In this document: positions 17,539-31,570 of the stretch, one piece after another
Position numbering within the stretch: position 1 is the first letter of the stretch
Layout: every line of letters begins with the position of its first letter
From: Janthinobacterium sp. PC23-8
GTDB taxonomy: Bacteria > Pseudomonadota > Gammaproteobacteria > Burkholderiales > Burkholderiaceae_D
Reading direction: 5' to 3'
Assembly (NCBI RefSeq): GCF_002250505.1
Contig: NZ_NJGY01000001.1
Location: 1 to 64,000 of the forward strand
DNA length: 64,000 bases
Program-made: the position numbers and the translations under genes
The notes under the pieces: generated by a model
Seen by the model: the letters and a program-made list of their open reading frames with translations, nothing else
Told to the model about the DNA's origin: nothing
Database searches by the model: none

Positions 17539-20208
17539 ATGCACGCTACCGATTCCGCAGCACCGCCGCCCAGTGACGGGCAGCAGCCCACTCAACAGGA
17601 GATCGATCATATCGTTGTCCTGCATGAGAGCGGCGAGCATGGGGAAATGGAACAGGCGACACGCGCCCTGCTCGAGCTCTACCCTGCTTCGGCGCTGCTC
17701 TGGAGCGTGCTGGCCATGGCCTTGCAGCTGCAGGGCAAGGATGGCTTGGCGGCCCTGCAAAAAACGGTGGAACTGGCGCCCGGCGACGCCGAAACCCATC
17801 TGCACCTGGGCAATGCCCATATGGATGGCGGCCAGCCCGACCTGGCCATGCCGTGTTTCATGCGCGCCTTGGAACTGGCGCCCGCCTTTGCCGAGGCCCT
17901 GAGCCGCCTGGGCGATGCGCTGCAGGCGCAAGGACACCTGAAGGAAGCGGCCGAATGCTACCGTGGCGCGCTCGAGCTCGATCCTGCGCTGGCCATTGCC
18001 CATGCGGGCAAGGGCGACATTTTACAGGCGCAGCAACAATTCCAGGCGGCCGAAGCGAGCTACCGCCAGGCTTTGGCGCTGGCGCCCGCGACCGCCGATC
18101 TGCATCGCAAGCTGGGCGATGTGCAAGTGGCGCTGAACCGGCCGGAGCCAGCCATGCAAAGCTATGCGGCGGCGCTGCAGGGCGACCCTGCCAACGCCAT
18201 GGCGCATGGCGGTCTGGGCAATGTGCTGTTCAGGCTGGACCGCAACGCGCAAGCTGCCGCCAGCTACCGCGCCGCCACCGCGCTGCCGGCGGCCATTGCC
18301 GCCCACTTCCACGGCCTGGGACGCAGCCTGCATGCGCTGGGCGAGACGGCCGAGGCGGAAAGCGCCTACCGCCAGGCGATCGCGCTCGACGCCACCGTCG
18401 CCGCGCCGATGCTGCATTATGCCGATCTGCTGCGCGAAACCCGGCGCAAGGAACCGGCGATCGCCATCTACCAGGCGGCGCTGTTGCTCGAACCGCACAA
18501 TATCGACGCCTTGAACAACCTCGGCATGGCGCTGCAGGAAGACGGCCAGCTGGAACAGGCGCTGGCTTCTTTCCGGCAAGTGGCTGTACTGGCGCCGAAC
18601 AATCCCATCACCCATAGCAATATCGCCGCCGTCCTGAACACCATGGGGCAACAGGACGCCGCGCTGGACAGCTGCAGGCGCGCCGTAAAGCTGGGGCCTA
18701 AATCCACCGCCGCGCATGTCAACCTGGGCACCTGCCTGATGGAGATGGGACGCCTCAGCGAGGCTGTCAGCAGCTTTGAAACCGTGGCCAAGCTCGATCC
18801 GCATCACCGCCGGGCGCACATTAATATCAGCGCCGCACTGACCCGTCTGGGCCGCATCGACAAGGCCATCGCGCATGCCCGCCAGGCACTGAAGATCAAT
18901 CCGGACTGGGACGAACTGCACAGCAACCTGTTGTTCTATCTTACGCATAGCCAGGATATCGACGTCGCCGCCCTGCTTGCGGAACACCTGAAGTATGCCG
19001 AGCATTTCGAGGCGCCGCTGCGCGCTGCGTGGCCGCAGCATGCCAACGTGCGCGACCCCGAGCGCCGCCTGCGCATCGGCTTTGTGTCCGCCGACCTGTA
19101 CAATCATGCAGTAGCGCATTTCATTACGCCTATTCTGGAGCACCTGGCTCTGTCGCCGCGCCTGGAAATCGTGATTTACGCCAACAGCTTCCACGATGAC
19201 CACGTCAGCCGGCATCTGCACGGTCTTGCCCATATATGGCGCCAGGTCGAAAAACTGACCCATGCGGAACTGGCGCAACTGGTCACCAGCGACGCCATCG
19301 ACATCCTGATCGACCTGTCGGGCCACACCGGCTTCAACCGCCTGCCAGCGTTTGCGCGCAAACCGGCGCCGCTGCAGCTGAGCTGGATCGGTTATCCAGG
19401 TACCACCGGTTTGCAGGCAATGGATTATTTTCTGACAGATCGACACCTTTCGCCACCGGGTACGCTTGATGCGCAATTCACCGAGAAGCTGCTGCGCCTG
19501 CCGGCGACCGCACCGTTCCTGCCCTCGCCCGACGCGCCTGATATCGGCCCAGCGCCAGCGCTTGCCAATGGCTACATGACTTTTGGCAGCTTCAACCGGG
19601 CAGGCAAACTGAACCGTAGTGTGATCGCCCGCTGGGCCAAATTGCTGCGCCTGGTGCCGAGTGCAAGAATGCTGGTCGCTGCCATGCCCAACAAGCAGAC
19701 CAGCGACATGCTGCGTTCCTGGTTCCATCAAGAAGGCATCGCCTCGACGCGCCTGACATTTTACGGCTACACCAATACCCGCGACTACCTGGGGCTGCAT
19801 CACCAGGTCGACATTTGCCTCGACACCTCGCCCTACACCAGTGGCACCACCGGTTTTCACGCGCTGTGGATGGGCGTGCCCACGCTCACGCTGCGCGGAC
19901 GAACCTTGCCGGGCCACGTGACGTCCGCCATCCTGTCGGCGACCGGCCTCGATGAATTCATTGCGCTAGACGAAGCGGACTTCCTGGCAAAAGGCCAGCG
20001 CTTCGCCAGCAACATCGACAGCTTCAGCGCTCTCAGGCCTGCGATGCGCGACCGCATGAACAACGCGGCGACCGGACAGCCTGCAGTGATCGCGCAAGGA
20101 CTTGAACTTGCCCTGCGCAGCATCTGGCGGCGCTGGTGTGCGGGCCTGCCTGCGATCTCGTTCGACGTCGGCGACACGGTCATCGCCGAACCAGCGGCCG
20201 GAGACTGA
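17539..20208 (+). CDS. TPR-containing O-linked GlcNAc transferase-like glycosyltransferase (GT41)
   Basis: 889 aa soluble glycosyltransferase of the OGT/SPINDLY family. Roughly a dozen TPR units occupy residues 20-480 (WSVLAMALQLQGKDGLAAL, LEPHNIDALNNLGMALQ). The GT41 catalytic region follows (about 510-880), with LRIGFVSADLY, DILIDLSGHTG, SWIGYPGTTGLQAMDY, TFGSFNR and DTSPYTSGTTGFHALW. Bacterial relatives glycosylate Ser/Thr of surface proteins, notably flagellin, in the cytoplasm before export. The start at 17539 is chosen because the open frame upstream runs through the preceding terminator; the ribosome site is weak, so the start is uncertain. It is the first gene of a tight ten-gene operon that ends near flagellin. 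Confidence 0.9.
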   Translation: MHATDSAAPPPSDGQQPTQQEIDHIVVLHESGEHGEMEQATRALLELYPASALLWSVLAMALQLQGKDGLAALQKTVELAPGDAETHLHLGNAHMDGGQPDLAMPCFMRALELAPAFAEALSRLGDALQAQGHLKEAAECYRGALELDPALAIAHAGKGDILQAQQQFQAAEASYRQALALAPATADLHRKLGDVQVALNRPEPAMQSYAAALQGDPANAMAHGGLGNVLFRLDRNAQAAASYRAATALPAAIAAHFHGLGRSLHALGETAEAESAYRQAIALDATVAAPMLHYADLLRETRRKEPAIAIYQAALLLEPHNIDALNNLGMALQEDGQLEQALASFRQVAVLAPNNPITHSNIAAVLNTMGQQDAALDSCRRAVKLGPKSTAAHVNLGTCLMEMGRLSEAVSSFETVAKLDPHHRRAHINISAALTRLGRIDKAIAHARQALKINPDWDELHSNLLFYLTHSQDIDVAALLAEHLKYAEHFEAPLRAAWPQHANVRDPERRLRIGFVSADLYNHAVAHFITPILEHLALSPRLEIVIYANSFHDDHVSRHLHGLAHIWRQVEKLTHAELAQLVTSDAIDILIDLSGHTGFNRLPAFARKPAPLQLSWIGYPGTTGLQAMDYFLTDRHLSPPGTLDAQFTEKLLRLPATAPFLPSPDAPDIGPAPALANGYMTFGSFNRAGKLNRSVIARWAKLLRLVPSARMLVAAMPNKQTSDMLRSWFHQEGIASTRLTFYGYTNTRDYLGLHHQVDICLDTSPYTSGTTGFHALWMGVPTLTLRGRTLPGHVTSAILSATGLDEFIALDEADFLAKGQRFASNIDSFSALRPAMRDRMNNAATGQPAVIAQGLELALRSIWRRWCAGLPAISFDVGDTVIAEPAAGD

Positions 20209-20211
20209 CAG

Positions 20212-21234
20212 ATGGCCATGTCACAAGCCCGCATCGCCGCCATTGCCTATCACTTGCCTGAAGCAACGCTGGACAACGACGCTCTGGCGCAGATATTCCC
20301 CGACTGGCCGGCACAAAAGATTGCCGACAAGACCGGTATCGTGCGGCGCCATATTGCGGCAAGCGATGAAACCGCCGGCGACCTGGCCTTCCATGCTGCC
20401 AACGCGCTGTTCGAGACACACGACATCGACCGCCATGCAGTCGATTTCATCATCCTGTGCACGCAGGCCCCCGACTATCTGTTGCCCACCACCGCCTGCC
20501 TGTTGCAAGCGCGCCTGGCGCTGCCGACCTCGTGCGGCGCGCTCGATATCAATCTTGGCTGCTCGGGCTATGTGTATGGACTGGCGCTGGCCAAGGGCCT
20601 GATCGAAGCAGGTATCCGCAGGCAGGTATTATTATTAACGGCTGACACGTATTCCAAGCTGATCAACCCCCTTGACCGCAGCGTGCGCACGCTGTTTGGC
20701 GATGGCGCCTCGGCCACGCTGGTCGCGGCCGCCGACGGACCAGCGGCGCTCGGCCCCTTTGTACTGGGCACAGACGGCGCCGGCGCCGCCAATCTGATGG
20801 TGCCCGCCGGCGGCATGCGCATGCCGCACAGCGCCGCCAGCGCGGTGGAAAAGGAAGACGCCGCCGGCAATGTGCGCAGCCAGGACCAGCTGTTCATGGA
20901 TGGCGCCGAAATCATGCAGTTCACCCTGTCTTCGGTGCCGCGCGTGATGCGCGAACTGCTCGATGAGGCCGGCAAGACGCTCGATGACATCGACCATGTG
21001 ATCTTGCATCAGGCAAACCAGTTCATGCTGGAAGCCTTGCGCAAGAAAATGAAGATTCCTGCCGAAAAATTCATCATCGAACTCGATACCGTCGGCAATA
21101 CGGTGTCGTCTACCATCCCGATCGCCATTGCCAGGGCCCGCGCGAGCGGTCGCATCCGCTCTGGCGATACCGCCCTGCTGCTCGGCTTTGGCGTCGGTTA
21201 TTCGTGGGCCGGCACCCTGGCCACCTTGCCTTGA
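20212..21234 (+). CDS. 3-oxoacyl-ACP synthase III-like (KASIII) condensing enzyme, copy 1
   Basis: 340 aa thiolase-fold enzyme that condenses an acyl-CoA starter with malonyl-ACP. The Cys-His-Asn triad is complete: Cys117 (LGCSGYVYG), His266 (LHQANQFM) and Asn296 (GNTVSS). Its neighbours are a dedicated ACP, a second KASIII and a reductase inside a sugar-modification operon. The likely job is therefore to make a short 3-oxoacyl chain (for example acetoacetyl-ACP) destined for an N-acyl group on an amino-sugar rather than for membrane lipids. It starts 3 bp after the glycosyltransferase, with GGAG about 8 nt before the ATG. An alternative ATG lies two codons in. Confidence 0.9.
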   Translation: MAMSQARIAAIAYHLPEATLDNDALAQIFPDWPAQKIADKTGIVRRHIAASDETAGDLAFHAANALFETHDIDRHAVDFIILCTQAPDYLLPTTACLLQARLALPTSCGALDINLGCSGYVYGLALAKGLIEAGIRRQVLLLTADTYSKLINPLDRSVRTLFGDGASATLVAAADGPAALGPFVLGTDGAGAANLMVPAGGMRMPHSAASAVEKEDAAGNVRSQDQLFMDGAEIMQFTLSSVPRVMRELLDEAGKTLDDIDHVILHQANQFMLEALRKKMKIPAEKFIIELDTVGNTVSSTIPIAIARARASGRIRSGDTALLLGFGVGYSWAGTLATLP

Positions 21235-21264
21235 TCCATCATTACCTCTTTTTTAGGACGAACA

Positions 21265-21489
21265 ATGCACGCATTATTTAATGGACTGGCAGAAATACTG
21301 GAAATCGATGCCGTCGACATCACGCCGGAACTCAAGCTCGCTGATTACGCATGGGATTCGCTGGCCATCATTTCCGTCATCGCGCTGGTGGACGAACTGT
21401 ACGATCAGATGCTCAATGGTCAAGCCTTGTCGCAGTGCGTCACGGTGGCCGATATTACGGCAATGATCAACACCGGCGCCAAGCAATAA
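21265..21489 (+). CDS. Acyl carrier protein
   Basis: 74 aa acidic helical protein carrying the phosphopantetheine attachment Ser32 in the WDSLA motif (DSL of ACPs). It differs enough from housekeeping AcpP to be a pathway-dedicated carrier. It is placed between two KASIII genes, with AGGAC before the ATG and only 2 bp to the next start. It presumably holds the growing acyl chain that is later handed to the acyltransferase of this operon. Confidence 0.9.
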   Translation: MHALFNGLAEILEIDAVDITPELKLADYAWDSLAIISVIALVDELYDQMLNGQALSQCVTVADITAMINTGAKQ

Positions 21490-21491
21490 TC

Positions 21492-22556
21492 ATGGCCAGC
21501 GTCAGGACGGCATCAGGCTTGCCCTTTACCATCGCCAACCTGGCCATGCGTGGCCTGGTGTGCGCCGTGCCGCAGGAAGAGGTGACGAACGCCAGCCTGC
21601 AAGCCACTTTCGGCGCCGAAGGCGTCGCCGACGTGGCGCGCATGATCGGGGTAGAGGCACGCCGGCGCGCCGCACCCGGACAAACCACCGCCGACCTGTG
21701 CCAGGCAGCGGCGCAGACGCTGTTGGCCGGCCTGGGCTGGGAACGCGACAGCGTCGATGCGCTGATCTTCATTTCCCAAACAGCCGACTACGCCTTGCCG
21801 GCGACGGCCTGCGCCCTGCACGGGCGCCTGCAACTGCCCTCGTCCTGCGCCGCGTTCGACGTCAACCTCGGCTGTTCCGGCTATGTCTATGGCTTGTGGC
21901 TGGCCGGGAAAATGCTCGATGGCCTGGCCATACAGCGGGTGCTGCTGCTCGTGGGCGACACCATCAGCAAGACCGTCGATCCGCAGGACCGCGCCACCGC
22001 GCTGCTGTTCGGCGACGCCGGTTCGGCGACGGCGCTGGAGTTTGACCCGCTGGCGGCGCCGGCTCACTTCCTGCTCGGCACGGACGGCCAAGGCGAACGC
22101 CACCTGATGATACCGGCCAGCGCCCACCGCGCCTATCAGGACGATGATGCACGCCTGGCCGGGCGCGATCCGGCCCGCCTGTACATGGATGGCGGAGAAA
22201 TCTTCAATTTCACGCTAACGCATATTCCGCCGCTGGTCAACGATCTGCTGACGCTGGCAGGCCAGCCACGCGACAGGATCGACGCTTTCCTGTTTCACCA
22301 GGCAAATACTTTCATGCTGAAACACATCATCAAGAAAGCCAAAATACCGCCTGAAAAAGCGCCAATGAACATGGCGCGTTTCGGCAATACGTCCAGCGCC
22401 TCGATTCCGCTGCTGGTCTGCGATCAGTTGCCGCAACTGACAAGTGCCGCCATGACGGTGGCCATGTTCGGTTTCGGTGTCGGCTATTCCTGGGCCGCAG
22501 CCTTGATGGAACTGCCGCCACTGGCAGTAAACCAGCTGATTGAAGTATCACCATAG
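21492..22556 (+). CDS. 3-oxoacyl-ACP synthase III-like (KASIII) condensing enzyme, copy 2
   Basis: 354 aa, paralogous to the KASIII two genes upstream (shared LGCSGYVYG, FGVGYSWA and HQAN segments) but clearly diverged. The triad is intact: Cys128, His269 (FHQANTFM) and Asn299 (GNTSSAS). The start at 21492, 2 bp after the ACP stop, gives MASVRTASGL; the frame is open further upstream only as an out-of-frame overlap with the ACP gene. Because both copies keep all catalytic residues, they may perform successive condensations, use different starters, or act as a heterodimer. The sequence alone does not tell. Confidence 0.88.
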   Translation: MASVRTASGLPFTIANLAMRGLVCAVPQEEVTNASLQATFGAEGVADVARMIGVEARRRAAPGQTTADLCQAAAQTLLAGLGWERDSVDALIFISQTADYALPATACALHGRLQLPSSCAAFDVNLGCSGYVYGLWLAGKMLDGLAIQRVLLLVGDTISKTVDPQDRATALLFGDAGSATALEFDPLAAPAHFLLGTDGQGERHLMIPASAHRAYQDDDARLAGRDPARLYMDGGEIFNFTLTHIPPLVNDLLTLAGQPRDRIDAFLFHQANTFMLKHIIKKAKIPPEKAPMNMARFGNTSSASIPLLVCDQLPQLTSAAMTVAMFGFGVGYSWAAALMELPPLAVNQLIEVSP

Positions 22557-22569
22557 AGAAACGGTCATC

Positions 22570-23331
22570 ATGATTTTCCATCCTTCCCTCCTGGTCGGCC
22601 AGCGCATCGTTGTTACTGGCGCCTCATCGGGCATCGGCCGCGCGACCGCCATCGTGCTCGCCAATCACGGTGCACAGCTGGTCATTACCGGCCGCGACCC
22701 GCAGCGCCTCGCCGCGACACTATCCGAACTTGCCGGCGAAGGCCATCTGGCGCGCGAACTCGATCTCGATGGCAGTGACGCCATCGCGGAATTTCTGAAA
22801 GAAATCACCACCGGCCAGCAACCCCTGTCCGGCTTGTTTCATGCCGCTGGCGTCGAACTGCTGCGTCCCATGAAATTATCGAAGGCGCAGCAAACCGCGC
22901 AGGTTTTTTCGTCAAGCATCCATAGCGCACTGGCCCTGGCACGCGGTTGCGCCTTGCGTGGCGTCATGCAAGACGGCGCGGCCTTGCTGTTCATGTCCTC
23001 CGTCGCGGCACAACGGGGCCAGGCAGGCATGGCCGTCTATGCCGCAGCCAAGGCCGCCATCGACGGCATGGTGCGCGCGCTGGCGGTGGAACTGGCGCCG
23101 CGCGGCCTGCGCGTCAACAGCATTGCCGCTGGCGCCGTACAAACGGAAATGCATGAGCGCCTGCTGCAGGGGCTGCCCGAAACGGCGGTGCAGGCCTACG
23201 CCGAGCGCCACCCTCTCGGGCTGGGCAAGCCGGAAGACATCGCCCAGGTGGTCGCCTTCCTGCTATCGGACGCGGGGCGCTGGGTCAGCGGCGCCACCTG
23301 GGCGGTCGATGGCGGGTATCTGGCGCGTTAG
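22570..23331 (+). CDS. SDR-family 3-oxoacyl-ACP reductase-like enzyme
   Basis: 253 aa. TGASSGIG is at 16-23, the catalytic Ser144, Tyr157 and Lys161 (YAAAK) are present, and a GGY-type C-terminus is typical of FabG-like SDRs. In this operon the natural substrate is the 3-oxoacyl-ACP made by the KASIII enzymes, giving a 3-hydroxyacyl-ACP. That fits known flagellin sugars carrying 3-hydroxybutyryl groups in Pseudomonas. It sits 13 bp after the second KASIII. A role as a sugar ketoreductase cannot be excluded. Confidence 0.88.
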   Translation: MIFHPSLLVGQRIVVTGASSGIGRATAIVLANHGAQLVITGRDPQRLAATLSELAGEGHLARELDLDGSDAIAEFLKEITTGQQPLSGLFHAAGVELLRPMKLSKAQQTAQVFSSSIHSALALARGCALRGVMQDGAALLFMSSVAAQRGQAGMAVYAAAKAAIDGMVRALAVELAPRGLRVNSIAAGAVQTEMHERLLQGLPETAVQAYAERHPLGLGKPEDIAQVVAFLLSDAGRWVSGATWAVDGGYLAR

Positions 23332-23346
23332 CGCGTGAAGGACACT

Positions 23347-23979
23347 ATGCGAAACATTATTATTGTTGGGGCCGGGCGTTTTGGCCGCGAAATTTGCTGC
23401 TGGCTCGAACAGATGCTCGATCCGGCCACCATCCGCATCAAGGGCTTTCTGGACGACACGCGCGCGGTGGCGCCATGCCTGAATGACGAGTACCAGTATC
23501 CTTTGCTGGGAGCCATCGACGCCTATGCCCCGGGTGCCGGAGATGCTTTCGTCATTGCAATTGCGGAACCGGCCGACAAATTACGCATCGCGGCAGCCTT
23601 GCAAGCGAAGGGCGCCGTATTTTTCACGCTGATCCACCCCAGCGCCGTGCTGGCGCGCACGACAACCGTGGGCCAGGGCAACATCATTTGTCCGTTCGCC
23701 ATGCTGTCAGCCGACAGCGTGACAGGCGATTTTGTCACCATCAACAGCTATTCCGGCATCGGCCATGACGCCGTGATCGGCGATGGCACCACGCTCAGTT
23801 CACACGTCGACATTACCGGCGGCGTGATCGTCGAGGCCGGCGTTTTCTTCGGTTCCGGCGCGGTGGTGCTGCCGCAACTGCGCATCGGCAGCGGTGCCAG
23901 GATCGGCGCCGGGGCAATCGTCATGCGTCCGGTGGATGCGGGCAGTACCGTGTATGCCATGCCGGCCAAAAAATTATGA
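23347..23979 (+). CDS. NeuD/PglD-like hexapeptide-repeat sugar N/O-acyltransferase
   Basis: 210 aa. The N-terminal PglD-type nucleotide-sugar binding fold (IIIVGAGRFGREI, about 3-15) is followed by left-handed beta-helix hexapeptide repeats (about 95-200, including GDFVTINSYSGIGHD and a final MPAKKL tail). Relatives acylate the amino group of UDP- or dTDP-amino-sugars. It is the candidate for moving the 3-hydroxyacyl chain from the operon's ACP to the sugar amine. The ATG at 23347 is preferred over a GTG 12 bp upstream because AAGGA lies 4 nt before it. Its stop overlaps the next start (ATGA). Confidence 0.87.
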   Translation: MRNIIIVGAGRFGREICCWLEQMLDPATIRIKGFLDDTRAVAPCLNDEYQYPLLGAIDAYAPGAGDAFVIAIAEPADKLRIAAALQAKGAVFFTLIHPSAVLARTTTVGQGNIICPFAMLSADSVTGDFVTINSYSGIGHDAVIGDGTTLSSHVDITGGVIVEAGVFFGSGAVVLPQLRIGSGARIGAGAIVMRPVDAGSTVYAMPAKKL

Positions 23980-25010
23980 CGACATATCCCCTTTCGGCGC
24001 CGCAGCTGCGCAATACATTCTGGCATTTATTGTGCCATCGCAGCGAATTGCCGCAGCCCGGCGATTTTCTGAAACTTGACTGGCTCGATCAGGAAGTGGT
24101 GATCTTCAACGACGACGGCGAACTGGTGGTGTTTGACAACCTGTGCCCCCATCGCGGCACGCGTTTTTTCACCGACAACACCGGCAACGGGGCCATCGCC
24201 TGCCCCTATCATGGCTGGTCCTACCGCGCCGGTTCCCTGCATATTCCATGCAGGGAGCAATACGCGGCAGACGATCTGCGCAACGCGCGCCTCAATACGC
24301 TGCAGACCGACTGGTGCGCCGACTTTCTGTTTGCCTCGATATGTCCGGCGATGCCGCTCGACGCGCAACTGGGCGACACCTTCAACCTGCTCGGCGCCCT
24401 GTCTTTCAATATCGACGGTCTGGCCGACGTCAATGCCTATACGTTTGAGTGCGACTGGCGTATCGCACTGGAAAACGCACTGGAACCCTTGCACGTGCCG
24501 TTCATCCATCCGGACAGCCTGGGACAATTGAATCTGGGCGACGGCGTCAATGATTTCACCGCGTGGACCTCGGTATGGCAGGCACCGCTTGGCAACATTG
24601 CCATGGAAAAAAAGCTCAAAGGCATCAAGCGCCTGTTTCAGCTCGAGGGGCAATACCCGGGCTATCAAAGCATCTACCTGTTTCCATTCACAATGTTATC
24701 GTCGACGTTTGGCTATTCCTATTCTCTGCAGCATTTCTTCCCTGCAGAGTCGGCCAATCGCACCCATTTTTCCAGCCGTCTGTTGCCTGGCGTAACTAAA
24801 AATGCCGCCGCCAGCACTGCGCTGGCCGAATTTTTTCGCTCCACTGCGGCCATGAACCGCCAGGTATTTCATGAAGATCATCAGATCTGCCAACGCATCG
24901 TGCATGGGGCGGCAGACAACGAACGGTTCGGCATTTTATCTGTCCGGGAAGAAAAAATTGCGCATTTCCGGCGCTGCCTCAAGCTGGCCGGCACGCTGCA
25001 ACAGCCATGA
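23976..25010 (+). CDS. Rieske [2Fe-2S] non-heme iron oxygenase
   Basis: 344 aa oxygenase alpha subunit. The Rieske cluster ligands are Cys57, His59 (CPHRG), Cys76 and His79 (CPYHGW). The mononuclear iron ligands are His173 and His178 (PLHVPFIH), with Asp301 (HEDHQIC) as the third, so the active site is complete. No ferredoxin or reductase gene is nearby, so electrons must come from elsewhere. It overlaps the acyltransferase by 4 bp, placing it firmly in the sugar operon. A hydroxylation or desaturation of the sugar or its acyl chain is inferred. Confidence 0.88.
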   Translation: MTTYPLSAPQLRNTFWHLLCHRSELPQPGDFLKLDWLDQEVVIFNDDGELVVFDNLCPHRGTRFFTDNTGNGAIACPYHGWSYRAGSLHIPCREQYAADDLRNARLNTLQTDWCADFLFASICPAMPLDAQLGDTFNLLGALSFNIDGLADVNAYTFECDWRIALENALEPLHVPFIHPDSLGQLNLGDGVNDFTAWTSVWQAPLGNIAMEKKLKGIKRLFQLEGQYPGYQSIYLFPFTMLSSTFGYSYSLQHFFPAESANRTHFSSRLLPGVTKNAAASTALAEFFRSTAAMNRQVFHEDHQICQRIVHGAADNERFGILSVREEKIAHFRRCLKLAGTLQQP

Positions 25011-25093
25011 ATTACCCTCTTGTCCTCGCCATGAACGGGCCACTCGACTGGCGTCATCAGAACTGCCCCCACATTGCCGATAGCGACCTATGA
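25007..25093 (+). CDS. Possible 28-aa microprotein, coupled at both ends
   Basis: A 28-codon ORF beginning MNYPLVLAMNGPL and ending PHIADSDL. Its ATG overlaps the Rieske stop as ATGA, and its TGA overlaps the aminotransferase ATG as ATGA, so it exactly fills the 79-bp gap. No similarity is recognised. It may be a true small protein or only a leader that couples translation of the aminotransferase to the upstream genes. A second in-frame ATG lies eight codons in. Confidence 0.45.
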   Translation: MNYPLVLAMNGPLDWRHQNCPHIADSDL

Positions 25094-26211
25094 AACCTGA
25101 AGCCGACAACAAGCCCCTCTATGTCACGCAGCCGGCCATGCCGCCGCTGCGAGACTTTTTGCCTTATCTCGAGCAGATCTGGGACAACAAGATCCTGACC
25201 AATTGCGGTCCCTACCACCAGCAGCTCGAGCAGGCGCTGGCGCAGTACCTGGGCGTCAAATATATCTCCCTGTTTGCCAACGGCACGCTGGCACTGATGA
25301 CGGCCCTGCAGTCGATGCGCATCTCCGGCGAAGTCATCACCACGCCTTACTCCTTCGTGGCCACCGCGCATGCCATGCTGTGGAACGGCATCAAGCCGGT
25401 TTTCGTCGATATCGAACCCGGTGGCTTCAACATCGATCCCCGAAAAATCGAGGCGGCGATCACACCGCAAACGACGGCCATCATGCCTGTGCACTGCTAT
25501 GGTCATCCCTGCGATGTCGGGCGGATTGAAGAAATTGCCAGCAATTATGGCTTGAAAGTAATCTATGATGCGGCGCACGCTTTTGGCGTGCAATCTGGCG
25601 GCAGCAGCGTGCTGCTGCAGGGCGATTTGTCCGTGCTCAGCTTTCATGCCACCAAGGTGTTCAACACCTTCGAGGGCGGCGCTATTGTTTCTCCCGACGC
25701 AAAGACCAAGCGCCATATCGATCACCTGAAAAATTTCGGCATTGTCGACGAAGTCACTGTCGTCGCTCCTGGCATCAATGGAAAGATGAACGAGATCAGT
25801 GCGGCGTTCGGCTTGCTGCAGTTAAAGAATATTGATATGGCCTTGCAACAACGCGCCGAGATCGATCACAAGTATCGCGCCGGCCTGCGCGGCATCGATG
25901 GCATTCACTGCCCCAAGCCACCGGCAAGCGCGGTACACAACCATTCATACTTCCCCATCCTGGTGCAAGCGGGCTATCGCCTGAGCCGCGACGGGCTGTT
26001 CCAGAAGTTGCGCGATGCCGACATCTATGCACGGCGTTATTTTTACCCTCTCATCAGCGAGTTTCCCATGTATCGCGGCATGCCCTCCGCAGCCACGGCC
26101 AATTTGCCTGCGGCAACGCTGGTATCGGCGCAAGTCATCTGCCTGCCCATGCACCCGGAACTGACCGATGCGCATGTCGAAAAGATCGTACAGATCATCC
26201 GTACAGCGTAG
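25090..26211 (+). CDS. DegT/DnrJ/EryC1/StrS-family sugar aminotransferase (VioA-like)
   Basis: 373 aa PLP enzyme. The internal-aldimine Lys189 is in SFHATKVFNTFEGGA, and the PLP-ring Asp160 is in DAAHAFG. Family members transaminate 3- or 4-keto-6-deoxy nucleotide sugars. The FHATK...EGGA style is that of VioA/QdtB-type enzymes that make dTDP-4-amino-4,6-dideoxyglucose or 3-amino relatives. It supplies the amine that the NeuD-like enzyme would acylate. No sugar nucleotidyltransferase or 4,6-dehydratase is in the operon, so the keto-sugar must come from rml-type genes elsewhere. Confidence 0.92.
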   Translation: MKPEADNKPLYVTQPAMPPLRDFLPYLEQIWDNKILTNCGPYHQQLEQALAQYLGVKYISLFANGTLALMTALQSMRISGEVITTPYSFVATAHAMLWNGIKPVFVDIEPGGFNIDPRKIEAAITPQTTAIMPVHCYGHPCDVGRIEEIASNYGLKVIYDAAHAFGVQSGGSSVLLQGDLSVLSFHATKVFNTFEGGAIVSPDAKTKRHIDHLKNFGIVDEVTVVAPGINGKMNEISAAFGLLQLKNIDMALQQRAEIDHKYRAGLRGIDGIHCPKPPASAVHNHSYFPILVQAGYRLSRDGLFQKLRDADIYARRYFYPLISEFPMYRGMPSAATANLPAATLVSAQVICLPMHPELTDAHVEKIVQIIRTA

Positions 26212-26252
26212 CCCGGACGGCGCCCGAGACTGACCTACCCATTTTAAAGAAT

Positions 26253-27362
26253 ATGCAAAATTCCATGAATAATTCCTCCAGCAATGCCAAGCCTGTTCTG
26301 ATTTTTCCGGCAGGCATGCCGCGTTCCCTGGAATATCTGGAGCGCTGTCTTCGTACCGGCCAGGATGTGATAGGTTCGTCTTCGCTTGCCTATGACGTGG
26401 CAAAATCGCGCTATCCGGACTGGGCACATCTGCCCTACATTACCGATCCCGCCTTCAGTGACGCGCTCGTCACGCTGATCAATCAATACAAGGTCGGCGC
26501 GATCTACACGCCCAATGTGGTGGCGTGGTCCTATCTCAATCGCATGTTGCCGGTGATCGCGCCAGACGTGCCTCTCGTCAATGCATCGCCCATATCGGAA
26601 GAAGTGAGCGGCTACAAGGCGGCCACCAGACGCGGTCTGCAGATGCTGGAAAAACCGCTGTCACTGGCATCGAGCGTGAAACAGCTGCCTTGCGCTTCCG
26701 AACTGGAACTGAGCACGTTGTTCAGGCACGCCACCATCATTCCGGGCATGTGCGATGATGAAAAGATAGGCGCACTGTGTGAAATCGCCCGACATAGCGT
26801 GGCCGGTGATATCGTCGAAATTGGCAGCGCCTATGGCAAGTCGGCCTTTGTGTTGGCACGACTGGCACAGCTGCACCATACAGGCCCCCTCCTGTGCGTA
26901 GACCCATGGCAAAGCGAGTTTACCGTGCAGCACGATGCTGCCGGCCTGCTTGACAGCCTGGTCAACGAATTTGACAATGACGAAATCTTGCGCGTCTTTG
27001 AAATGAGCTTGCTTCCCTATAGCAACGGCAAGATCAATTATCTGCGCCTGCCATCGACCGAGGCCGTACGGCATTACGCCACCGAACGCGACGTCACAAC
27101 CTCTGCCTTCGGCACCACCACCTATTGCGGTCAGATTGCCATACTGCATATCGACGGCAACCACAGCTATGAAGCGGCGCGCGCCGATGTCGACGCCTGG
27201 AGCGGCCATGTGTTGCCGGGCGGCTGGATCGTCATCGACGATTACGTCTGGCCTTATGGCGACGGTCCGCAGCGGGTGGGCGACGAATTCCTGAATGAAA
27301 ACAAACACCGTCTCAGCTGCGCATTCGTGATGGGTACCGCGCTGTTCCTGCAGTTGCACTGA
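26253..27362 (+). CDS. Class I SAM-dependent methyltransferase with extra N-terminal domain
   Basis: 369 aa. The C-terminal two-thirds is a Rossmann methyltransferase of the Methyltransf_24 style: SAM motif GDIVEIGSAYGKSA (about 179-192), then LLCVDPWQ, HIDGNHSYEAARADVDAW and GGWIVIDDY. The N-terminal 130 residues (VLIFPAGMPRSLEYLERC, then a YTPNV stretch) look like a nucleotide-binding pre-ATP-grasp domain, an unusual addition. Probable role: O-methylation of the flagellin sugar, as seen for 2-O-methyl viosamine in Pseudomonas. It lies 41 bp after the aminotransferase and 13 bp before the second glycosyltransferase. A second possible ATG is four codons in. Confidence 0.8.
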   Translation: MQNSMNNSSSNAKPVLIFPAGMPRSLEYLERCLRTGQDVIGSSSLAYDVAKSRYPDWAHLPYITDPAFSDALVTLINQYKVGAIYTPNVVAWSYLNRMLPVIAPDVPLVNASPISEEVSGYKAATRRGLQMLEKPLSLASSVKQLPCASELELSTLFRHATIIPGMCDDEKIGALCEIARHSVAGDIVEIGSAYGKSAFVLARLAQLHHTGPLLCVDPWQSEFTVQHDAAGLLDSLVNEFDNDEILRVFEMSLLPYSNGKINYLRLPSTEAVRHYATERDVTTSAFGTTTYCGQIAILHIDGNHSYEAARADVDAWSGHVLPGGWIVIDDYVWPYGDGPQRVGDEFLNENKHRLSCAFVMGTALFLQLH

Positions 27363-27375
27363 GGTCTGGACACAT

Positions 27376-30249
27376 ATGCCATCATCTACTCCACCATCGC
27401 CACGAAATGCGGTCCTGGCAAGTGCTGGCCGAGCCAACAGCAAGGCTGACAAGGTCATCGCGGCGGCCATCGATAATTATCGCAAGATGCAGTCGAGCTT
27501 GCCGCAAGACGCCGAAGTTCACTATACCATTGGTCATGCCTTGTCCCTGAGCGGCAAAACAGACGATGCGCAGGCGGCATTTCGTCTGGCGATCGAACTC
27601 AAGCCCAACCACCTCAACGCATTGAAAGACTATGCATCGCTGTTGCATGAGCGTGAACGGTATGAAGAAGCTGTTGTCCACTACCGTGCGGCGTCGCTGC
27701 TGGCGCCGGAAGACGCGGCGATTGCCTGCAGCCTGGGCGCGGCCTTGCAGGCGACGGGCGCACTGGACGAGGCTTTGATTGCCTATCGAACAGTGCTCGA
27801 CCTGATGCCGGACAGCGCTTCGGCCCACAACAATATCGGCTCGGTGCTGCAAAACCAGGGGCAGATCGAACTGGCACAGCAGAGTTTCATGCGCGCCCTG
27901 GAAATCGAACCGGATTTTGCCGATGCCCTGTGCAATATGGGCGTGTGCATGCTGGGAGTTGGTCGGCTTGACGAGTCGCTGGACTATACCAGGCGCGCCA
28001 TTGCGCGCCATCCCGCACATCTGCAGGCACGCACCAATCTCACTTCGATTCTTTTCAGGCAAGGCCGCAATGATGAGGTGATAAAGCAATGCCGCCTGGC
28101 GCTGGAAATCAATCCGGATTGGAAATTTATCCACAGCAATCTGCTGTTTTCACTTTCTCATAGTGAACAACTGGCTCCCGCAGCGGTGTTTTCCGAACAC
28201 CTGCGCTACGCGGAGCAATTCGAAGCACCGCAACGGGCAGCCTGGCCACGGCATGCGAACGTGCGCGACCCCGAGCGCCGCCTGCGTATCGGTTTCGTCT
28301 CCGCCGATCTGTACAGCCATGTCGTTTCCAGTTTCATCACGCCAGTATTCGACCATCTGCGCCATGCGCCGGGATTGGAACTGCTGGTATATGCCAACAG
28401 TCTGCATGACGATGAATCGAGCCGGCATTTGAAAACACTGGTCGATATCTGGCGGCAAGTGGAAAAAATGAATGATGAGCAACTCGCGCAGTTGATCAGC
28501 GACGACGGCATCGACATCCTGATCGACCTGTCCGGGCATACCGGCGGCAACCGGCTGACCACTTTTGCCGGCAAGCCCGCGCCGTTGCAGGCAAGCTGGA
28601 TCGGCTATCCCATGACGACCGGTCTACAAGCGATGGACTACTATATCAGTGACCGATATTTTTCACCGCCTGGCCTGCTGGACGCGCAATTTACGGAAAA
28701 GCTGCTGCGTCTGCCCGCAACCTCACCTTTCATGCCGCCTGCCGAAACCCCTGCGGTCAGTGCCGCGCCGGCACTGACCAATGGCCATATCACATTTGGC
28801 AGTTTCAACCGGCCCAGCAAACTGAGTCGGAAACTGATTGCCAGATGGGCGACATTGCTGCGCGCCTTGCCCGATGCGCGCATGGTCATGGCCGGCATGT
28901 CCGACGATGGCCTTGCCGACACCTTGCGCGCCTGGTTTGCAGAGGAAGCCATCGCCAGCGAACGGCTTGATTTTTATCGCCATACGCATACCGCCGCCTA
29001 CCTCAAGCTGCATGAGCAGGTCGATATCTGTCTTGACACCTCGCCTTATGCCGGCGGCACCACAACCCTGTATGCCTTGTGGATGGGCGTACCCACCCTG
29101 ACCATGACCGGCCCGACCCTGCCGTGCCGGGTTGGCGCCGCAATCATGTCGCAAACCGGGTTGCCTGAATTTATCGCCAGCGATGAAGCCGATTTTATTG
29201 AAAAGGGTGTACAGCTTGCCGGCAACCTGCCCCACCTTGCCGCCATTCGTATGCAAGCACGTGCGCGCATGAGCAATAGCGCCATGGGGCAGCCGGCGCT
29301 GATCGCCGCCGGCCTCGATCACGCGTTGCGCACCATCTGGCAGCGCTGGTGTGCCGGCTTGCCACCAACGTCGTTCGAGTCCGAACCTGAACAAAGTGCC
29401 CTGATCGAGCGCGCCCGCAGCCACAAGGCATTGCATGAGGTAAAGGTGGACGTCGCCTTGCCGCTGGCGCTCGAACATCACCAGGCCGGCCGACTTGAAG
29501 CGGCCGAAACACTGTACCTGGCGATTCTTCATGTGCAAGCCGACCACCCCATCGCCAATCACAACATGGGTTTGCTGGCAGGCCAGCTGGGCTATCACGA
29601 TGCGGCCCTGCCCTATCTGTACAAGGCCCTGCAGAGCGCCGGCGACGAGAGCGACTTTCATTATTCCTACGCCAATGGCTTGTTGCAGGCAGGCCAGCCG
29701 CAGCAGGCATTGGAAATTATCGACGCGGCGATGGCGCAGGGACACGACAGCGCTCAGGCACAGGCCTTGCAACACCGCGCGCGCCAGTTGCTGGCCGGCG
29801 ACGGCCCCAGCCAGGCGGAAGAAGAACAGCTGATTGCCCTGTTCGAAGCAGGGCGCCATGCGGTACTGGAAACTGCGGCGCAAGCGCTGGTCACGCGTTA
29901 TCCGGCATCCGGTTTTGCCTGGAGCGTATTAGGCACCGCGCTGCAGCTACAAGGCAAGGATGCCTTGCAAACGCTGCTGCAGGCGGTGGCACTGGCTCCC
30001 GGCGACGCCCAGGCGCTGAGCAATCTGGGCAATGAATGGCAGGCACACGACAAGCACCAGGAGGCAATTGCCTGCTATCAAAGGGCGCTGGAACGCGATC
30101 CGCAATTTGCTGCCGCGTATGGTAATCTTGCCCGGGCACAACATGCACTGGGCATGGTCGCAGATGCCGCCAGCAATTTCCGGCAGGCGCTGGCGCTGGC
30201 ACCGGATGACGCGCAACTGCTGAAAGACCTGGCAATTCTGCAAGCATGA
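27376..30249 (+). CDS. Second TPR/GT41 O-GlcNAc transferase-like glycosyltransferase, with C-terminal TPR extension
   Basis: 957 aa paralogue of the operon's first gene. N-terminal TPRs occupy about 45-250, and the GT41 catalytic region about 300-670 (LRIGFVSADLY, DILIDLSGHTGGNRL, SWIGYPMTTGLQAMDY, TFGSFNR, DTSPYAGGTTTLYALW). An extra TPR block fills about 676-957. The extension resembles the N-terminus of the first copy (ALQLQGKD, LAPGDAQAL), as if the 5' part of a further tandem copy had been fused on. It is probably the transferase that modifies flagellin, whose gene starts about 150 bp downstream. It is the last gene of the operon, and no terminator is visible after it. Confidence 0.9.
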   Translation: MPSSTPPSPRNAVLASAGRANSKADKVIAAAIDNYRKMQSSLPQDAEVHYTIGHALSLSGKTDDAQAAFRLAIELKPNHLNALKDYASLLHERERYEEAVVHYRAASLLAPEDAAIACSLGAALQATGALDEALIAYRTVLDLMPDSASAHNNIGSVLQNQGQIELAQQSFMRALEIEPDFADALCNMGVCMLGVGRLDESLDYTRRAIARHPAHLQARTNLTSILFRQGRNDEVIKQCRLALEINPDWKFIHSNLLFSLSHSEQLAPAAVFSEHLRYAEQFEAPQRAAWPRHANVRDPERRLRIGFVSADLYSHVVSSFITPVFDHLRHAPGLELLVYANSLHDDESSRHLKTLVDIWRQVEKMNDEQLAQLISDDGIDILIDLSGHTGGNRLTTFAGKPAPLQASWIGYPMTTGLQAMDYYISDRYFSPPGLLDAQFTEKLLRLPATSPFMPPAETPAVSAAPALTNGHITFGSFNRPSKLSRKLIARWATLLRALPDARMVMAGMSDDGLADTLRAWFAEEAIASERLDFYRHTHTAAYLKLHEQVDICLDTSPYAGGTTTLYALWMGVPTLTMTGPTLPCRVGAAIMSQTGLPEFIASDEADFIEKGVQLAGNLPHLAAIRMQARARMSNSAMGQPALIAAGLDHALRTIWQRWCAGLPPTSFESEPEQSALIERARSHKALHEVKVDVALPLALEHHQAGRLEAAETLYLAILHVQADHPIANHNMGLLAGQLGYHDAALPYLYKALQSAGDESDFHYSYANGLLQAGQPQQALEIIDAAMAQGHDSAQAQALQHRARQLLAGDGPSQAEEEQLIALFEAGRHAVLETAAQALVTRYPASGFAWSVLGTALQLQGKDALQTLLQAVALAPGDAQALSNLGNEWQAHDKHQEAIACYQRALERDPQFAAAYGNLARAQHALGMVADAASNFRQALALAPDDAQLLKDLAILQA

Positions 30250-30403: not shown

Positions 30404-31570
30404 ATGCTGAGCCTTCACACCAACGCTGCCGCCCTGTCCGCACAATCGTCGATCTCGAAAACCCAACAGTCGCTGTCGACATCGATGACGCGTCTGTCCA
30501 CCGGCTACCGCATCAACTCGGCAATGGATGACGCTGCCGGCCTGCAAATCGCCACCCGCCTGAAAGCACAAACCAGCGGTATGGCCATGGCCATGCGCAA
30601 CACGCAGAACGCCACCTCGATGATCCAGACCGCCGACGGCGCGCTGGGCGAAAGCACGAACATCCTGGTGCGCATGAAAGACCTGGCCACGCAAGCGGCC
30701 GATGGTTCGTCGACCGTTGACGACCAAAAAGCCATGCAATCCGAATTCGACACACTGACCAACGAACTGAGCAACGTTCTGGGCAACACCTCGTTCGCTG
30801 GCGCCAAACTGATGTCCGTCGCAGCAACGGCAGCCCAAAAAACTGCGGCGCTGACCAAAGCTACCACTGATGGCCTGGCTGTCACCGATTCAACGCTCGG
30901 TACCACCTACCTGGCAACCTCGGCTGGCTCGGTGCTGGCCACTGCAGTGACCGCCAACGGCACAGGCGGCGCCAACGCCACTACCGCCGCTGCCGTGGTC
31001 ACTGCAACGACCGCCAAACTGACCGCCGATAAAAACGATCAAGTGGCAAAAGCCACCGCCGCCGCTTCCGCAGCGTACAGCACCGCCGCCAATGCCAGCG
31101 ACGCCACCAATGACGGCAAGTTCTCGGGCAACCTGCAATTCCAGATCGGCGCCTCGACCAAGGAAACGATGAGCTTTGACCTGTCGGCGCAGCTGGGCGC
31201 CATGCAGACTGCGCTGAAAGGCGCCACCGCCAATTTCAACACCTTCGGCGCCGCAGCGGGCACCGCAGGCACCGAACTGACCACGCCGGCAAATGCCTCG
31301 GCCGCCATCGACAAACTGCAGGCCGCGATCGACTCGGTCGGCACCACCCGCTCGTCGCTGGGTGCGGCAGCGAACCGCCTGGACAAAGTCTACAGCAACC
31401 TGTCGAACGTCAGCACCAACACCCAAGGCGCTTCGGGTCGTATCATGGACACCGACTTCGCGACCGAAAGCTCGAACATGACCGCTTCGCAAATGCTGCT
31501 GCAAGCTGGTACCGCAATGCTGAAACAAAGCAACAGCATGTCCTCGATGGTCATGTCGCTGCTGCAATAA
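30404..31570 (+). CDS. fliC: Flagellin (lateral-type filament protein)
   Basis: 388 aa filament subunit, exported unfolded through the flagellar apparatus. The conserved N-terminal D0/D1 region (about 1-140: LHTNAAALSAQ, SLSTSMTRLSTGYRINSA, DDAAGLQIATRL) and C-terminal D1/D0 region (about 300-388: TDFATESSNMTASQMLLQAG, ending MVMSLLQ) flank a short central part very rich in Ala/Thr/Ser. That part is a natural target for the adjacent O-glycosyltransferases. GGAG lies about 8 nt before the ATG. I could not find a convincing sigma-28 promoter in the 154-bp upstream gap. In lateral nomenclature this is LafA. Confidence 0.96.
   Translation: MLSLHTNAAALSAQSSISKTQQSLSTSMTRLSTGYRINSAMDDAAGLQIATRLKAQTSGMAMAMRNTQNATSMIQTADGALGESTNILVRMKDLATQAADGSSTVDDQKAMQSEFDTLTNELSNVLGNTSFAGAKLMSVAATAAQKTAALTKATTDGLAVTDSTLGTTYLATSAGSVLATAVTANGTGGANATTAAAVVTATTAKLTADKNDQVAKATAAASAAYSTAANASDATNDGKFSGNLQFQIGASTKETMSFDLSAQLGAMQTALKGATANFNTFGAAAGTAGTELTTPANASAAIDKLQAAIDSVGTTRSSLGAAANRLDKVYSNLSNVSTNTQGASGRIMDTDFATESSNMTASQMLLQAGTAMLKQSNSMSSMVMSLLQ

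Follow-up and report, generated by a model that had tools for sequence, protein, structure and literature searches.

A GT41 glycosyltransferase of Janthinobacterium carrying the head of another GT41 gene behind its catalytic domain

Why a GT41 glycosyltransferase should continue for 289 residues past its catalytic domain, and where those residues came from, are the questions raised by gene B of Janthinobacterium sp. PC23-8. The window, a stretch of 64,000 nucleotides (contig NZ_NJGY01000001.1, positions 1 to 64,000), belongs to a genome of 6.39 Mb in 12 contigs in which PF13844 matches two genes, A (17539..20208) and B (27376..30249), both on the forward strand, as are all features given below. 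Eight window proteins were scanned with profiles: A, B, a flagellin, an ACP-synthase-III-like protein, a Rieske oxygenase, a DegT-type aminotransferase, a methyltransferase and a PhyH protein. Genes A and B score 157 and 159.9 bits with PF13844 against a cut-off of 25, which places both in GT41. Gene A has its first ATG at 17539, in a frame open from 17422, and has the order H2-type head, TPR, GT. Gene B is a single ORF of 957 amino acids without interruption, and its PF13844 and TPR family matches, together with the architecture of its orthologues, give the order TPR, GT41, C-terminal head (H1-H2).

The TPR families match B within residues 26-250 (27451..28125), ahead of the catalytic domain, which is the usual but not obligatory place for such an array in GT41 enzymes. 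The catalytic domain (residues 253-668, 28132..29379) contains two stretches matched by PF13844 within residues 253-636, and its end was set by comparison with gene A. Its best solved structures are SPINDLY 7y4i (8.3e-74) and 8dtf (4.4e-73), and it aligns along SPINDLY, including the GHT motif and a common Lys in the FN...K stretch, both of which we take to be catalytic. B thus resembles the GT41 family (SPINDLY, OGT, XcOGT; PF13844) in its whole catalytic domain and preceding TPR array, but adds a TPR head, derived from another copy, behind the catalytic domain. In a full-length structure model helical repeats appear at both ends of B; the model was built from three sequences, with a mean pLDDT of 56.7 in the catalytic domain, and was used for the helical repeats alone. 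The tail (residues 669-957, 29380-30246) consists of a linker (29380..29424), beginning where A-type proteins and the X-type proteins described below stop or nearly stop, then H1 (residues 684-800, 29425..29775), H2 (29776..30210) and a last stretch (30211..30249) whose length and sequence differ among orthologues.

The original prediction held that the tail carries the N-terminus of a further GT41 copy, and the comparison of A with B that it proposed bore this out at both levels. Residues 808-943 of B and 53-188 of A (17578..17985) form a gap-free alignment with 45% identity (3.1e-27, 105 bits), and the DNA is 75% identical across 91 bases (4e-12). The motifs ALQLQGKD and LAPGDA, predicted to match the N-terminal TPRs of A, are common to the two and in register. 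H1 has no match in the head of gene A. It corresponds to the N-terminus of X genes in other genomes, with 54-60% identity to 25 X proteins, so that the tail does begin with a segment typical of a transferase start; the predicted starting point of 29401 lies eight codons ahead of H1 as cut here. About 260 residues of the tail align with the X head (H1-H2) from the X start Met onward. This Met stands 46 residues ahead of an ANHN motif in all 25 X proteins, and the B genes of G038 and G029 have an ATG at the head start, 44 before ANHN, where the X protein of G019 has a second Met. We also considered whether the head might be made on its own from a start codon inside B; with no ATG, GTG or TTG at one place common to the seven B genes found (34 codons each), such a start is unlikely. 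A plasmid DNA search with gene B gave 19 records, all of 60-80% identity and none covering 80% of the gene.

Since TPR arrays are widespread and look much alike, the tail could in principle be an independent TPR extension that owes nothing to a further transferase. H2 of the tail, however, scores 110 bits against the A head, whereas other TPR segments of A and B of equal length score 31-69 bits (scores uncorrected for composition), which puts the similarity above the TPR background. The alignment moreover starts at the initial Met of X, and tail and X heads have motifs in common, among them ANHN.GLLA and GKDAL. An extension shared by B orthologues but independent in sequence would have spoken for such an origin; the extension is indeed common to the B orthologues found, yet in sequence it is related to the heads, and we regard general TPR resemblance as a hardly credible explanation.

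The tail was searched in 40 genomes of the genus, and 32 stretches (20 kb each, one of 15.7 kb) together with the window gave 33 drawn genomes, chosen by their match to the tail; the remaining seven of the 40 matched weakly (best 1.7e-12) and were left undrawn. Three types of gene were found in the 33: X (H1-H2-TPR-GT; 25 genomes), A (H2-TPR-GT; eight) and B (TPR-GT-H1-H2; seven). X genes occupy the same locus in 25 of the 33 genomes. The layout of X, with an N-terminal head and an end soon after the catalytic domain, is not that of B, whose head is C-terminal and whose domain order is the X order rotated. Past the catalytic domain all seven B proteins continue for 270-352 residues, whereas the 33 proteins of types A and X stop after 0-16; in five B proteins the figure is 270-298, and in two it is 351-352, with further X-type TPR sequence remaining. 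B occurs without A in G025, and A together with X in G006. Genome G018 has an intact A, a long flagellin and a 252-residue remnant of B (L042 4252-5010) made up of parts of the catalytic domain and H2; B is therefore not indispensable in that genome, where A and the long flagellin remain. The G006 locus, with A and a full X, was considered as a direct ancestor of the fusion and rejected, as its X groups with that of G005; recombination between two locus types is the likelier origin. A DegT aminotransferase fragment lies behind the full X gene of G006 (L043 2062-2388), which suggests a recombinant locus. Five genomes (G005, G008, G013, G014 and G026) have an additional GT41 gene elsewhere, with an open frame of 684-709 amino acids.

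GT41 genes have the head at the N-terminus in six genomes belonging to four other genera (G154, G258, G141, G076, G075 and G051; the count leaves out G112, which is cut by a contig end), and the domain order of B is therefore derived. A query spanning the junction (GT end plus H1) was applied to 392 genomes from the family and 399 from the order, and 15 stretches taken from its results, among the matches listed, were then scanned with purpose-made profiles. The original prediction invoked deletion between tandem copies and suggested looking for a three-copy arrangement in relatives, in which tandem copies were found. In G668 three copies follow one another, and a single TGA separates the first from the second within a common frame; G099 has serial copies, including a pair that shares a frame and is divided by one TAG; and in G375 two copies in the same frame are separated by a lone TAG, 20 codons ahead of the next Met, the tandem sitting between FixC and DegT-FliC as in Janthinobacterium. 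Ten ORFs with two GT domains were seen, among the matches listed, in nine genomes (G099, G234, G161, G559 with two, G604, G682, G693, G721 and G081), those of G559 C110 and G682 being cut by contig ends. Nine of these ORFs have an H1-like match between their GT domains, though at only 17-18 bits in G099, G604 and G682. The ORF of G234 reads TPR-GT-head-TPR-GT, and its GT duplication is recent, as the two GT domains are nearly identical. These ORFs resemble B in that a GT domain is followed in frame by the TPR or head of another copy, but they keep the second catalytic domain, which is absent from B. G444 has one GT domain with about 120 residues after it, and G341 and G323 have single X-type genes; another GT41 gene ending in a head was not seen in the 15 stretches, among the matches listed. 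The ORFs L097 4446-11987 (2513 aa) and L098 4087-11616 (2509 aa), from G693 and G721, contain two GT41 domains and, behind the second, a head-like match; the roughly 580 residues after it matched none of the GT41 profiles made here.

Tandem copying and fusion of GT41 genes thus recur in the order, and relatives show the steps from a single X gene through an in-frame tandem and a two-GT fusion to the shortened fusion TPR-GT-H1-H2. B is a fusion of the two-GT type that lacks the second TPR-GT, that is, its shortened form.

The tails of the seven B genes form one clade (100/99; with outgroups 100/97 and 99/98). In the tree of H1 and H2 without outgroups they group with the X heads of G019, G034, G035 and G027 (97/94); with outgroups this grouping has 81/94 and also takes in the heads of G258 and G141, from other genera, and in another tree it is unresolved. 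The catalytic domains of A and B form one clade (100/99), whose nearest relative, not firmly, is the X of G002 (81/76). The seven B bodies are not monophyletic in that tree, A lying among them (B monophyly AU p = 0.036), and such bodies with tails that do form a clade call for gene conversion or some more involved history. The groups for these and the following topology tests were named after the trees had been seen. Since the nearest kin of tail and body differ over H1 and H2, a separate third gene would be the favoured, though not proven, donor of the head; the lost third transferase of the original prediction is accordingly a preferred candidate and not an established one. The head might instead be B's own, if a duplicate of B once stood behind B and the N-terminal head was afterwards lost, which amounts to a circular permutation. 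Such a course requires two copies only and would account for B being without the N-terminal head that A and X have. It also agrees with the short H2-only tree, where the A and B heads come together without support (47/15) and no other placement was rejected (p 0.235-0.355). Over H1 and H2, however, the tails join the X heads of the four genomes named above, and constraining them with the X of G002 was rejected (AU p = 0.029), as was constraining the catalytic domain of B with the X of those four genomes (p = 6.8e-5). We therefore consider permutation unlikely, if deserving of some weight.

Whether the tail is more than debris was approached through dN/dS by the Nei-Gojobori method. For the least saturated pair, G000 and G009, the values for the N-terminal TPR, GT, H1 and H2 were 0.26, 0.13, 0.17 and 0.20; in all other pairs dS was at least 0.67 for these domains, and saturated in some, and the corresponding values were 0.15, 0.10, 0.10 and 0.21 for G000 and G033, 0.13, 0.10, 0.07 and 0.19 for G000 and G023, and 0.31, 0.22, 0.18 and 0.24 for G025 and G038. 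Across seven pairs H1 ranged from 0.04 to 0.18, and H2 from 0.08 to 0.24 in six, its dS being saturated in the seventh (G038-G029). H1 changes at much the same low rate as the catalytic domain, and H2 at up to about twice that rate. The tails retain 64-70 of the 86 residues that are invariant in X heads (74-81%), against a 39-43% match to the consensus at variable sites. These values indicate that the H1-H2 tail is maintained by purifying selection. The catalytic domains of B in the seven species are down to 60% identical to that of the window, and the fusion, meaning read-through together with loss of the 3' part of the next gene, predates the split of these B genes. An idle head that has simply not decayed yet would fit the sequence past H2, which erodes and varies freely with differing end points (dN/dS 0.24-1.86 where defined, from 11-30 codons), as well as the weaker constraint on H2 than on the catalytic domain and the loss of most of B in G018. 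It is difficult to reconcile with the low ratios of H1 and H2 over seven species and with the retention of most residues invariant in X heads, and a passive leftover seems to us improbable. Deletion between tandem copies remains a sound reading of the junction in light of the tandems and two-GT fusions of relatives, but the picture of recent debris is unsupported, since the tail is present in all seven B genes, forms one clade and is under purifying selection.

Our preferred explanation, which we hold to be probable, is that B took over, in a single fusion, the head of a GT41 gene standing in tandem next to it, and that selection has preserved this tail, most likely because it serves as an extra TPR module for substrate docking. 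B would have read through into the neighbouring gene, beginning at that gene's start codon, and the neighbour's own TPR-GT part would have been lost, leaving its H1-H2 as the C-terminal 260 or so residues of B. The fused head would have been retained by selection since this single acquisition, and may work as an extra docking module, probably for flagellin, placed behind the catalytic domain instead of ahead of it.

A comparable division of labour is known from Caulobacter crescentus. Its FlmG is a flagellin O-glycosyltransferase of 596 residues with an N-terminal TPR domain, and this TPR part binds flagellins while the GT part alone fails (PMC7591256). In layout and setting FlmG and B are alike, both being modular TPR glycosyltransferases, and gene B too lies beside flagellin and sugar genes; they differ in that the TPR of FlmG is N-terminal, whereas B carries both an N-terminal TPR array and a C-terminal head. 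A genome-level profile search found PF13844 matches in Caulobacter vibrioides. By analogy the X head may dock a flagellin substrate, B may modify flagellin, and the head may still dock substrate from the C-terminus of B. A more speculative extension, to which we give little credence at present, is that the head is a portable flagellin-docking module, that B has two docking arrays around one active site, that in B-bearing strains the fusion accompanied the replacement of several short flagellins by a single long, Ala/Thr-rich one, and that tandem copying, stop loss and truncation recurrently re-aim GT41 enzymes. Substrate choice by TPR-bearing glycosyltransferases is poorly understood, and here a head has been relocated from the front of one enzyme to the back of another and kept, a case in which the dependence of docking on head position could be tested directly; it also indicates that tandem copying at one locus generates new GT41 domain orders. 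A literature search of titles and abstract openings found, among the matches listed, no GT41 tandem fusion and no head behind a catalytic domain, a weak absence.

The flagellin gene of the window (30404..31570; PF00669, PF00700) begins 154 bases behind B and encodes the long form, of 388 amino acids, whose central 162 residues include 45 Ala, 31 Thr and 11 Ser. One complete flagellin ORF of 380-391 amino acids was found in each of the window, the other six B genomes and G018, although the L038 stretch ends just behind its flagellin and a further copy is possible there. X genes share head, catalytic family and locus with B but have the head N-terminal and mostly stand with short flagellins: at least one complete flagellin ORF was present in 17 of the 25 X loci, 16 of which have copies of 283-295 amino acids only, one to five per locus, while one, L064 of G015, departs from this pattern with ORFs of 460, 255 and 292; in the eight remaining X loci the stretch contained no complete flagellin ORF. 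Five outgroup loci (L076, L079, L089, L101 and L102) have flagellins of 283-285. As the flagellin of G006, which has A and X, is 291, the long form accompanies B and not A. Because the genes adjoin, this association is equally explained by plain linkage. In the FixC tree the A+B genomes fall in at least two places (three changes, two of them forced by supported branches), a pattern consistent with an A+B locus that may be moving between strains.

Genes for a DegT-type aminotransferase and a methyltransferase precede B. Between A and B (20212-27362) lie ACP-synthase-III-like, Rieske, DegT aminotransferase and methyltransferase genes, a set that varies among strains, and by eye we would add a presumed second synthase, an SDR and a NeuD-like acyltransferase. 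The labels FixC, SDR, NeuD, FlxA, FlhA, FlhB and FliR are our own presumptive assignments from reading the ORFs. The genes between A and B perhaps make an acylated amino sugar.
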